Of a stretch of DNA of 64,000 nt, positions 17,433-62,290 are shown one piece after another. The notes beneath the pieces were generated by a model. The model was not told where the DNA came from. It worked only from the letters and a program-made list of their open reading frames with translations, and did no database searches. Within the stretch, counting starts at the first letter, position 1, and each line of letters starts with the position of its first letter. Made by a program: the position numbers and the translations under genes. The stretch lies in contig JAGBJI010000009.1 of NCBI GenBank assembly GCA_017934545.1, positions 186,001-250,000 on the forward strand, given 5' to 3'. This DNA is from Bacteroidales bacterium. GTDB taxonomy: Bacteria; Bacteroidota; Bacteroidia; Bacteroidales; P3.

Positions 17433-17537
17433 GCCCCTTGCGAAAGTAATTGTAAAAAAATGTGGTTTTTTGTATCAAAAAAATAGGTTTTTTGTGTGAA
17501 AAAATGTGATTTTTTTGAGATTACTTTCACAAAGGGC
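17433..17537. repeat. 105-bp modular element A: words TGTGG, ATAGG, TGTGA
   Basis: Inverted arms GCCCCTTGCGAAAGTAAT and ATTACTTTCACAAAGGGC enclose three A6-N5-T6 units starting (word) at 17461, 17483 and 17505. Linkers GTATC and GTGTG. Located between hipT and the DUF4292 gene, both on +. Flanks carry further ATTGGGC and GCCGC motifs shared with elements C and D. Confidence 0.9.
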
Positions 17538-17610
17538 AAAAACCAAGCGGCATTGGGCAAAAACCAAACGCCGCAGGGCAGACATAATGCTTTATTACAA
17601 AAATTATTGG

Positions 17611-17618
17611 TATCTTTG
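17611..17618 (+). promoter_or_regulatory. -7 box TATCTTTG of the DUF4292 gene
   Basis: Exact TAnnTTTG match followed by GCA, 41 bases before the ATG at 17659. Confidence 0.7.
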
Positions 17619-17658
17619 CACAAAATTTAAACGTTGAACTTAAAAACATCAAAACTCC

Positions 17659-18324
17659 ATGCAGGGAATAAAAAAGATAATATATCTATTGTTGATTGTA
17701 GCCTTGACGGCATCGTGTTCGGTATTTAAAAAATCTTCCAAGAAGAAAAAATCCGCACCTGTGCAAACCCAAACCACTATTACCAAACCCGAAAAAAGCA
17801 AAGACACCGTTACGGTGAGTATACCCGCAAAAAAAATTGCTCCGTACAAGAGTTGCTCGTTCAAATGCAAGACCACTTTCAAGTCAATGCCCGTTACCTT
17901 GAATGTAAGGACAACGTACGACAGTATTTTTTGGATTTCCGCTTCGTCGTTCGGAATAGAAGCCATCAGAGTGAAATGCGACAGGGATTCATTGCTGATG
18001 ACGGACAAATTAAACAAAGAAAACGTACACTGGACTTACCAACGGGCTGCCGTATATGCAGGTCTGCCGCTTACCTTTGACTTTATACAGGATTTGTTTA
18101 CCGATACTACTTTGGTCAAATCGTACAATACCGCCAAATTCAGCGGAACGGTTGTCAAAAAACTTACAACCGTGCAGGGTGTAAGGTTGCCCGAACAGGT
18201 CAATATTGACGGCAAAATCAAAGGCTCGCAGCAAAAAATACAGTTATCGTTGAGTAATTACAAACTTAACGCCAAAAACGAATATCCTTTTGAGTTCGTA
18301 AAAGGATACAAAACCGTGAAATAA
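17659..18324 (+). CDS. DUF4292 lipoprotein
   Basis: 221 residues with a lipoprotein signal (lipobox LTASC, Cys about residue 20), a Lys/Ser-rich linker, then the DUF4292 domain, which has a LolA/LolB-like half-barrel pattern: VRTTYDSIFWISASSFGIEA and RDSLLMTDKLNKENVHW. Common and conserved in Bacteroidota; thought to act in envelope lipoprotein biology, but the function is not established. Single gene with its own promoter. Confidence 0.85.
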   Translation: MQGIKKIIYLLLIVALTASCSVFKKSSKKKKSAPVQTQTTITKPEKSKDTVTVSIPAKKIAPYKSCSFKCKTTFKSMPVTLNVRTTYDSIFWISASSFGIEAIRVKCDRDSLLMTDKLNKENVHWTYQRAAVYAGLPLTFDFIQDLFTDTTLVKSYNTAKFSGTVVKKLTTVQGVRLPEQVNIDGKIKGSQQKIQLSLSNYKLNAKNEYPFEFVKGYKTVK

Positions 18325-18391
18325 CACGCAGGATAATATTTACGGAATCAAAAAACGCAAAAAATGTTTGCGTAGTTATGAAATATTTCCG

Positions 18392-18399
18392 TAATTTTG
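18392..18399 (+). promoter_or_regulatory. -7 box TAATTTTG of the metal-uptake cluster
   Basis: TAnnTTTG match, 26 bases before the ATG at 18425. Confidence 0.65.
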
Positions 18400-18424
18400 C
18401 AAATCACAGCAAAAGAAATTGAAT

Positions 18425-18754
18425 ATGAGGAAACTATGTGCATATATTTTGTTGACGGTGTTCCTTTCGATGACAATCTTTACAGATTTTCACCGTCACA
18501 GGATAGTTTCCCCGATTGCAAAATGCGAAATGTGCGGGCATAATATCCCCCACCCTGACCATATATCGCAAAGTTATTCATACCAAGACTTGTGTCTTTT
18601 GTGTCATTGGGCGTCGGAAGAGTTTACAAGCGATGTAAAAACTCTTGCATTTTGCAATTTGCAGGCAATAAAAACGCAGTTTGCGGACGTTTTTTTGCAA
18701 TATTCATTTATTAAAGACAATTCCTGTCCGTCAAGGGCGCCGCCGCAGATATAA
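18425..18754 (+). CDS. Small DUF2946-like His/Cys protein
   Basis: 109 residues from the ATG at 18425 (a TTG 6 bases upstream is the alternative). Signal-like N-terminus, then clustered metal ligands: DFHRHR, CEMCGHNIPHPDH, CLLCHW. The C-terminus SRAPPQI matches the usual end of DUF2946 proteins, which sit next to metal-linked TonB receptors. Likely a periplasmic metal (copper or zinc) binder; the metal is not known. First gene of the cluster ending at 21496. Confidence 0.65.
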   Translation: MRKLCAYILLTVFLSMTIFTDFHRHRIVSPIAKCEMCGHNIPHPDHISQSYSYQDLCLLCHWASEEFTSDVKTLAFCNLQAIKTQFADVFLQYSFIKDNSCPSRAPPQI

Positions 18755-18856
18755 AGAAAAGGAAAACAATTCCTTTTTATCTGTATTTTCAATAAATAGA
18801 ACGAAGTATTAACAAGGATATATCCTGAATATATCCGTTATTAAACAACGCAGCAA

Positions 18857-60714: not shown

Positions 60715-60762
60715 AATTGTAAAATTATTTAATTGGTTATATATTGTTTAAAAAACAGAATG

Positions 60763-60770
60763 CAAAGATA
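60763..60770 (-). promoter_or_regulatory. -7 box of eno
   Basis: CAAAGATA on + is TATCTTTG on minus, 49 bases before the start at 60714. It lies just after the end of the DUF362 gene (60795). Confidence 0.75.
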
Positions 60771-60794
60771 CTAATTTTTTATCAATGCGTTTTG

Positions 60795-61793
60795 TCAGTC
60801 TATCTTTTTCACCGTATATTTTTCAGAACCCAAGCCTATTTGCTGTGCATAGTCCAAAATATGATCTCCTCTTTGCTGTTCAATTCTTTCAATCAATGGT
60901 TTGGTGTTGTTATCCGCCGTTACCTCCATATTGTATATAATGTCAAGGCAGGCTTTGTCCAACGCAACAGGGTCGGTTGAGGCCAAAATACCGTAATCCT
61001 TTATCAAAGGTTTTGCAGGGTTGGCATTGCAATCGCAGTCTATGGACATATTGTTCATAACTGCTATATATACTATTTTGCCTTTGAATTTGTCGGCAAC
61101 GGCTTTAGCTGCTTCGGCCATAGATTCGGTAAAATCGTCCTGCGGGGCAACATGTTTTTCCCACAATTCTTCCATCTTTTCCCACGTACCTGCACTGTGT
61201 ATGTATGCTTTTCCGTTCGTGGAAGCAAAGCCTATGGATTGGTTTTTCAAAACTCCGCCGAAACCTGCCATTTGGTGTCCTTTGAAATGTGCAAGGTTAA
61301 CAATGAAATCGTAATTGTTTATGTGCGAGCCTACGATGTCGTATTTCAAATGCTTTCCGCCGTTGATTTCAAGTTTCACTTCGCCTTCTTCGTCCATTAT
61401 GTCAACCGTTGCCACTTTGTCGTATCCGTGTTGGATGATGGTATTGCGGTGCAAATCGGTTGTGTGGCGTGTTCCTTGGTAAGCGGTGTTGCATTCAATG
61501 ATGTTGGCACCGAGTTTTTGAACCAACGGGGCAATAAGTTCAGGGCTTAAAGTGTGGACTCCTTTGCCGTCGCCCGTTGAAATCTTAACGCCGACTTTGC
61601 CTTGCGGTTCAACTCCCAACGCTTGGAAGATTTTTATCAGGCTTTCGCCCGAAATATTTTCCGTCATATAGACAACGCTTTCGTTTTCCGCTTCCGTTTG
61701 AGTGGAAGTTTCCGTGTCCGTGTTCTTCGAACATGAAGTTATTGTCAACATTGAGGCAGCTGACAACAACAAAGAAACAAATGTTTTTTTCAT
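60795..61793 (-). CDS. DUF362-family lipoprotein
   Basis: 332 residues. Lipobox TITSC (Cys about 21), acidic Thr/Glu linker, then the DUF362 domain: VGVKISTGDGKGVHTLSPEL, TAYQGTRHTTDLHRNTIIQH, IVNLAHFKGHQMAGFGGVLK and ILASTDPVALDKACLDIIYN. Many DUF362 proteins carry an added ferredoxin domain; this one does not, though a Cys pair (DCDCNANPAKP) remains in the middle. Being lipid-anchored it works in the periplasm or at the outer membrane. Function unknown. Confidence 0.85.
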   Translation of the reverse strand: MKKTFVSLLLSAASMLTITSCSKNTDTETSTQTEAENESVVYMTENISGESLIKIFQALGVEPQGKVGVKISTGDGKGVHTLSPELIAPLVQKLGANIIECNTAYQGTRHTTDLHRNTIIQHGYDKVATVDIMDEEGEVKLEINGGKHLKYDIVGSHINNYDFIVNLAHFKGHQMAGFGGVLKNQSIGFASTNGKAYIHSAGTWEKMEELWEKHVAPQDDFTESMAEAAKAVADKFKGKIVYIAVMNNMSIDCDCNANPAKPLIKDYGILASTDPVALDKACLDIIYNMEVTADNNTKPLIERIEQQRGDHILDYAQQIGLGSEKYTVKKID

Positions 61794-61828
61794 CTTAATT
61801 ATATGTTTTTACGGTTAATAAATATCAA

Positions 61829-62002
61829 TCAACAATCCGTCTGAACTTCATCAACGGTTCCCGGTGCGGCTTTGGTTGAAATCTGTGTTTTGTAATTGTT
61901 TTTGTCAAAACATTCGTCGGTATCGCACGCCCAGAATATTGACGGCATTGCCGCAAGAAGTGCAATCAAGCATATCAACGGCAGTTTGGTTTTTCTTTTC
62001 AT
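61829..62002 (-). CDS. Small lipoprotein (57 aa)
   Basis: From ATG 62002 (MKRKTKLPLICLIALLAAMP); the -7 box at 62033-62040 excludes the longer start at 62035. Lipobox IFWAC gives a mature peptide of about 33 residues with three Cys (CDTDECFDKNN and a final Cys). Unknown function. In the same direction as the DUF362 lipoprotein gene 35 bases downstream, so an operon of two exported lipoproteins is likely. Confidence 0.65.
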   Translation of the reverse strand: MKRKTKLPLICLIALLAAMPSIFWACDTDECFDKNNYKTQISTKAAPGTVDEVQTDC

Positions 62003-62032
62003 GTCTTTGAAAATATTTTTAATTCCAAAATG

Positions 62033-62040
62033 CAAAGTTA
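62033..62040 (-). promoter_or_regulatory. -7 box of the small lipoprotein / DUF362 operon
   Basis: CAAAGTTA on + is TAACTTTG on minus, 31 bases before the ATG at 62002. Confidence 0.7.
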
Positions 62041-62185
62041 CGTATTTTCTTTATAATAATAAAATCATGCCGTTGAAATTTAATGCAAAAAACTGCCGTT
62101 ACAAACACTTATTGCACAAAAAAGTATATTCCGCTTTTCCAATGCCCTTTTTCACCATACCGCCGCCCCAAGCGTTTTAATTTTT

Positions 62186-62290
62186 GCCCCTTCTGAAAGT
62201 AATCCGAAAAAAAATAGGTTTTTTGCCCCAAAAAATCACATTTTTTGACAGAAAAAATCTGATTTTTTCACTCTTCTTTCCGCAAGGGGC
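62186..62290. repeat. 105-bp modular element G: words ATAGG, TCACA, TCTGA
   Basis: Arms GCCCCTTCTGAAAGTAAT and CTTCTTTCCGCAAGGGGC. Words at 62214, 62236, 62258; linkers GCCCC and GACAG. Lies between the divergent small lipoprotein gene and purC, 55 bases upstream of the purC -7 box. It is the only copy with TCACA/TGTGA in the middle. Confidence 0.9.

Follow-up and report, generated by a model that had tools for sequence, protein, structure and literature searches.

Here, we describe a family of 189-bp intergenic elements, which we call ladders, that occurs seven times in a 64,000-nucleotide stretch (the window) of the genome of a rumen Bacteroidales bacterium (GenBank assembly GCA_017934545.1, contig JAGBJI010000009.1, positions 186,001 to 250,000; C11:186001-250000 in our numbering of this 2.38-Mb genome, G000). 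Sequence comparisons establish the extent and ends of the element, its dispersal, its geometry, its species dialects, and a reduced pairing between its halves, and few bacterial features hold their geometry while their sequence varies freely. We favor, with somewhat less than even confidence, reading the seven copies as high-copy, non-autonomous dispersed elements whose body would serve an architectural protein as a curved platform locked in helical phase.

Extent, geometry, and placement of the ladder

The first-pass annotation of the window had reported seven elements of exactly 105 bp, each with three A6-N5-T6 units, and their coordinates, their inner length, and the offsets of their 5-base words (28, 50, and 72) all proved exact on recheck. 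The 105-bp part is real, but it is the inner part of a true unit of 189 bp, with GCC/GGC recurring at 21-bp steps outside it. Among 72 core-like matches in a first sample, less 3 removed at stretch ends, 40 formed family A (a few of these being another dialect or shifted by one base); conservation across the 40 spans positions -42 to +146, beyond which it is at background level, with GCC at -42, -21, and 0 and mirror GGC ending at +104, +125, and +146. The element is a dyad-symmetric ladder, with three GCC-headed modules per side at 21-bp steps and a center of three A6-N5-T6 units at 22 bp. The window copies are as follows:

17391..17579, unstranded, copy 1, 189-bp ladder (inner 105 bp 17433-17537; outermost left GCC changed to GCT; words TGTGG/ATAGG/TGTGA)
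21527..21715, unstranded, copy 2, 189-bp ladder (inner 21569-21673; 6/6 GCC/GGC intact; words TCAGA/CCACA/ATAGG)
26890..27078, unstranded, copy 3, 189-bp ladder (inner 26932-27036; 6/6 GCC/GGC intact; words TCTGA/CCACA/CCTAT)
40996..41184, unstranded, copy 4, 189-bp ladder (inner 41038-41142; 6/6 GCC/GGC intact; words TCTGA/ATAGT/TGTGT)
45079..45267, unstranded, copy 5, 189-bp ladder (inner 45121-45225; 6/6 GCC/GGC intact; words ACTAT/TGTGG/TCAGA)
57063..57251, unstranded, copy 6, 189-bp ladder (inner 57105-57209; one GGC changed to AGC; words TCACA/CCTAT/TGTGG)
62144..62332, unstranded, copy 7, 189-bp ladder (inner 62186-62290; outermost right GGC changed to TAC; words ATAGG/TCACA/TCTGA)

All six triplets are intact in four of the seven copies and one is altered in each of the other three. 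A radical-SAM open reading frame (ORF; 57156-58124, minus strand) overlaps copy 6 by 96 bp, and copy 7 lies upstream of a SAICAR-synthetase gene that is preceded by an element in the congener G001, too.

The geometry is held genome-wide. A scan of G000, as the first-pass annotation had proposed, found 241 matches to the core at up to 3 mismatches versus 64 for the reversed pattern, 173 versus 14 with up to 1 mismatch, and 101 full ladders (18 ladder bases only, up to 1 mismatch) versus 1 in the control; these counts are somewhat inflated, because contig C7 repeats much of contig C4 and four-unit arrays match twice. From about C4:7442, C7 duplicates C4 at 99.99-100% identity in the compared stretches, an assembly redundancy, and its use as a second strain for empty sites was rejected for that reason. 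More detailed arm and half-element scans covered 1.12 of the 2.38 Mb (47% of G000). There, 42 of the 46 inverted arm pairs retrieved by a core-blind search had a spacing of 105 bp (exceptions: 104 bp twice, 106 once, and 147 once), which bears out the earlier claim of fixed length and spacing despite variable sequence. Across the 51 strong copies, the triplets are intact in 44, 47, 51, 50, 41, and 38, respectively, while identity at free positions in the outer modules is 0.40-0.48 versus a composition expectation of 0.29. Other families in G000 have four units or different arms. The notion that 105 bp, as ten helical turns, is the conserved quantity is not supported, in view of the 189-bp unit and of G001, which has the same architecture at 187 bp in total with a 103-bp inner part, so that 105 bp is not universal.

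The ladder is filled from a small dictionary. Among 120 words, read on either strand, there are 15 types, led by ATAGG (43), TCACA (26), TCAGA (18), and CCACA (9); 41 linker types occur among 80, and 39 of 51 word triplets are distinct. Outer words are oriented about the dyad, with TCACA, ATAGG, and TCTGA filling 70 of 102 outer places in the 51 strong copies. Words plus linkers pair across the dyad less than permuted partners do (z -3.0 in 51 G000 copies and -2.8 in 41 G001 copies), and the same holds for the inner arm (z -2.4 in G000 and -2.2 in G001). We infer that the halves avoid a perfect palindrome; their words would differ because a long perfect palindrome is presumably harmful.

As to placement, none of the 55 strong copies scoring at least 90 bits lies inside a called gene, and the 53 with two called neighbors all sit between genes, 23 tandem, 20 divergent, and 10 convergent (143, 72, and 39, respectively, for all G000 gaps of at least 190 bp). 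This upholds the earlier view that placement is independent of gene direction. When all 78 ladder matches are taken, weak dialects included, 2 are wholly intragenic and in frame, and in 3 the overlap with a gene end exceeds 50 bp.

Dispersal as a unit and relatives within the genus

The six most alike pairs of copies at different sites are 0.83-0.88 identical, and in 5 of the 6, the resemblance tails off no more than about 10 bp from the outermost GCC/GGC. An empty-site comparison, also proposed by the first-pass annotation, identified a locus (G000:C4:124780-125035) that is filled in G000 and G001 and empty in G009, where the sequence to the right of the element is uninterrupted (the right border is clear, while the left is uncertain by some bases). 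The G000 and G001 copies there differ in words and share the outermost module, with one extra 21-bp module in G001; at the same locus, G004, G013, G011, and G008 lack a ladder, and an array with a 21-bp period but a different dialect is present in G006 and G002. Together, the fading similarity at the ends and the filled/empty locus show that the element disperses as a unit, in the manner of a miniature inverted-repeat transposable element (MITE); the two weaker-dialect copies in frame within genes likewise speak for dispersal. Target duplications of 2-12 bp showed no excess in 40 copies and none was visible at the filled/empty locus. A half-element profile found no lone arms of this dialect in the 1.12 Mb, its 10 extra matches forming 5 pairs of slightly different spacing or words, so that the genome half scanned yielded no larger relative sharing these ends. 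No mobilizing enzyme was found. Carriage by viruses was rejected, the exact triple-core pattern occurring in 0 stretches of viral contigs.

Among 61 close genomes, the A6-N5-T6 core is present in G000 and in 3 of 13 congeners. Among the matches listed, named genomes with this core are the rumen Bacteroidales metagenome-assembled genomes RGIG9295 and RGIG5007 and one called Phil12. Outside the genus, the exact A5-N6-T5 triple pattern was absent from all 294 further Bacteroidales genomes sampled from the order. The ladder-only search (up to 1 mismatch) gave 6 matches in G010, 5 in G009, and 1 in G004, and none in G001 because its unit totals 187 bp; all but one of the 43 listed G001 copies have other arms and words in common (ACTGT, ACCCT, and ACTAT), with GCC every 21 bp. 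Single ladder matches in the more distant G020 and G039 look like chance (in G020 the count equals its own control) and were set aside.

A wider class of arrays shares this near-two-turn period, the recurrent feature being helical phase and not the 105-bp length. A self-similarity scan (periods 10-40, 33 of 44 bases; one array may count at several periods) placed 169 of 184 periodic clusters from nine congeners at 21-23 bp, with none in shuffled sequence or in 100 kb of E. coli. Clusters lying mostly within called genes numbered 7 of 108 in G000, 4 of 56 in G001, and 1 of 10 in G009. Among their words are, in G000, CATATG, TTTTC(T/A)GAAAA, and GTCCGAC, and, in G001, ATTAATCTGCGAT and AAATAAAACGCCG; G011 and G005 had no clusters at the 33-of-44 threshold, and G011 carries looser 22-bp word arrays. 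Similar spacing with different words across related species suggests that shape rather than sequence is retained. We consider it a rather unlikely extension that the genus maintains phase-defined, not sequence-defined, intergenic 21-23 bp arrays with species dictionaries, some gene borders at which they are retained or re-established, and co-evolving wrapping proteins. If so, these would be standardized architectural ladders, a sequence-agnostic nucleoid code on mobile units.

At the title and abstract level, the open-access literature yielded no description of a 189-bp ladder element. The nearest described element is the BrickBuilt MITE of Porphyromonas gingivalis (PMC4596501), which is likewise a dispersed, intergenic Bacteroidales element with inverted ends, near-two-turn tandem units (23 nt), and no internal transposase. 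BrickBuilt is present in 19 copies, which hold between 1 and 22.8 repeats of a single 23-nt sequence and end in IS5-like repeats (e.g., CCGAAAGGTCTC), whereas the ladder has a fixed 189-bp length, three units (main family), GCC...GGC ends, a period of 22/21, a small word dictionary, far more copies, and several dialect families; lacking the 23-nt repeat and IS5-like ends, it was rejected as a BrickBuilt member. More generally, prokaryotic MITEs are described as small, non-coding, mostly intergenic, multi-copy, and bounded by inverted ends (PMC10969869), and the ladder has inverted ends, a length within 50-1000 bp, many mostly intergenic copies, and dispersal as a discrete unit; unlike them, it has no target duplication, no parent element that was found, and internal helical phasing. 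RAYT, a Y1 transposase, is the partner enzyme of repetitive extragenic palindromes (REP) and bacterial interspersed mosaic elements (BIME). Movement as a RAYT-driven REP was rejected, as PF01797 (Y1_Tnp) occurs in 0 of 14 congeners while control genomes were positive in 5 of 14. REP/BIME (PMC3733652) are likewise high-copy extragenic palindromes with a proposed role in supercoiling, but the ladder is much longer and A-tract-phased.

Curvature and competing explanations

Strong intrinsic bending, predicted in the first-pass annotation from A/T tracts spaced 11 bp apart, is partly supported. Under two wedge models, the 61-bp core has a predicted curvature of 107-109 degrees versus 37-40 in dinucleotide shuffles, while the whole 189 bp is less extreme (end-to-end/contour 0.69 versus 0.84 for shuffled and 0.79 for other intergenic DNA). 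With helix-phased tracts and predicted curvature above shuffled, the core resembles the phased A-tract clusters proposed to curve DNA for nucleoid packing (PMC3940949, PMC4761138); those clusters are diffuse compositional signals, whereas the ladder is a standardized unit with defined ends. A single curved stretch of 75 bp pins plectonemes in vitro (PMC6301789), some MITEs such as the Correia element carry sites for the nucleoid protein IHF (PMC10969869), and the HU-HIG family is present in 14 of 14 congeners.

Under the curved-platform interpretation, the ladder spreads as a unit bounded by the outermost GCC/GGC, moved by a putative trans-acting recombinase, an architectural (HU/IHF-like) protein would most likely bind or wrap it, and it may pin a bend or supercoil apex between transcription units. 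We propose that the body keeps its helical phase because it acts as a curved platform and has to face one side of the DNA. Several observations weigh against this interpretation. The outer modules show no reduced pairing versus permuted partners (z 0.7 in G000 and 0.8 in G001), and in one wedge model a 10-bp tract spacing bends more than the observed 11. No binding protein emerged: HU-HIG numbers do not track array numbers, and an array lies within 300 bp of 5 of the 11 HU/HU-HIG genes examined, not clearly above the background of 15-32% of genes. Copies are irregularly spaced (coefficient of variation 0.72 for 9 copies on C10 and 1.58 for 10 on C11), by which regular chromosome spacing was rejected and evenly spaced chromosome domains are disfavored. 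Further, the sixth of the most alike pairs (C4:140814 with C7:206516) stays similar for ~20 bp beyond the left end and patchily beyond the right, and site sharing is inconsistent between species, evident for G000/G001 and not clear for pairs with G009.

The main rival, to which we give an appreciable but distinctly minority probability, is that the ladders are ordinary MITEs without a host function, i.e., insertion-sequence derivatives with long inverted ends and a transposase encoded elsewhere, the 21-bp GCC modules being transposase-binding sites, much as the ends of Mu or Tn7-type elements carry repeated transposase-binding sites. The inverted ends, small size, high copy number, unit dispersal, and filled/empty locus all fit, and copies less than 6 kb apart are more alike (mean 0.68 in 15 pairs versus 0.618 in 1260; p 0.004), as local movement or conversion would produce. 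That G001 and G009 share few sites (3/12 versus 8/98) also agrees. Less easily accommodated are the strict geometry despite divergence and the lack of target duplications (2-12 bp, 40 copies) and of lone arms of this dialect (1.12 Mb), and a period of 21-23 common to unrelated families is left unexplained. Even mere mobile repeats would be unusual in these respects, with one helical period across families of unrelated words; were they to be bound or curved in cells, the ladders would offer a countable, direct test of whether DNA-shape sites organize a bacterial chromosome, the natural dialects serving as controls.

It is improbable, in our judgment, that the ladders are static host sites, i.e., old architectural or regulatory sites whose words co-change with a binding protein in each species and whose apparent dispersal reflects gene conversion. 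The same end of the same gene carries an element in G000 and G001 in 15/42 cases versus 23/357 (the 15 representing 12 distinct sites, of which some were scored from either side), three conserved gene pairs carry an element in both genomes, one locus has arrays in four species and three dialects, and an anti-sigma-like gene has differing in-frame arrays in G000 versus G002/G006. The excess shrinks under gap-size control, from an odds ratio of 4.0 (p 0.005) at residual gaps of at least 60 bp to 2.2 (p 0.23) at 100 bp or more, with 14/23 versus 9/28 (p 0.05) when the total gap is at least 190 bp in both; the absence of clear G000/G009 sharing (2/20 versus 12/135) and the empty G009 site also count against static sites. 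Turnover is fast, with some sites shared. Transcribed hairpins, whether terminators or structured RNA, are very improbable. Six of the seven inner 105-bp parts do fold well above shuffles as RNA (z -4.4 to -7.4; the seventh -0.85), but mirror positions show no excess pairing versus permuted elements, so that the halves are not maintained as a stem, and words and inner arms pair less than permuted. Moreover, divergent genes flank 20 of the 53 copies, T-runs before and A-runs after the arms are in the wrong order for a terminator, and Rfam matched only two tRNAs in the window.

Related arrays and minor observations

The window also contains a weaker ladder and further two-turn arrays:

7803..7991, unstranded, weaker ladder in a different dialect (CCCGG/CCCAG as words, GCCACTTCGC as arms), in frame within ORF 7422-8366 (plus strand)
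941..1023, unstranded, related two-turn array, four AAAAACATATGTTTTT-type (CATATG) units at 22-bp steps, without a GCC ladder
47742..47824, unstranded, related two-turn array, four CATATG units at 22-bp steps, without a GCC ladder
53064..53461, unstranded, intergenic cluster of two-turn arrays (words AAAAAGAGGTCGGAGAAAAAT, AAAAAGTCCGACTTTTT, GTCCGAC, and GAGGTCGGAG; period 20-21)

Rickettsia palindromic elements are dispersed palindromes that can sit in frame inside genes. The weaker copy at 7803-7991 resembles them in this respect, although nearly all ladder copies are intergenic and the ladder geometry differs. It amounts to 63 codons, and its host ORF follows an extracytoplasmic function (ECF) sigma gene (6930-7412). 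A paralogue at G000:C11:153700-154521 likewise contains a weaker-dialect ladder, and the G002/G006 homologues (L184, L185) have, within the same variable linker, 21-bp in-frame repeats belonging to another dialect, so that this ECF-sigma-adjacent, anti-sigma-like gene carries in-frame arrays of one dialect in G000 and another in G002/G006.

Four-unit CATATG arrays at 22 bp gave 51 matches in 1.12 Mb of G000 and 0 in 0.78 Mb of G001. Elsewhere in the genus, inverted arrays of a TATGTAG-type heptamer at periods 14, 21, 28, and 35 were noted at G001:C9:150593-150826, together with a CRISPR-like array in G005 (L138, about 10534-10900) whose repeat contains CTTGTTTTAATGGAATATGATATCTGAC. G009 (L142-L146) carries another dispersed palindromic repeat (AATAAAGTGCCGAATCA ... 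TTTTCTGAAAA), two of its words occurring at 14 and 12 loci in 0.29 Mb.

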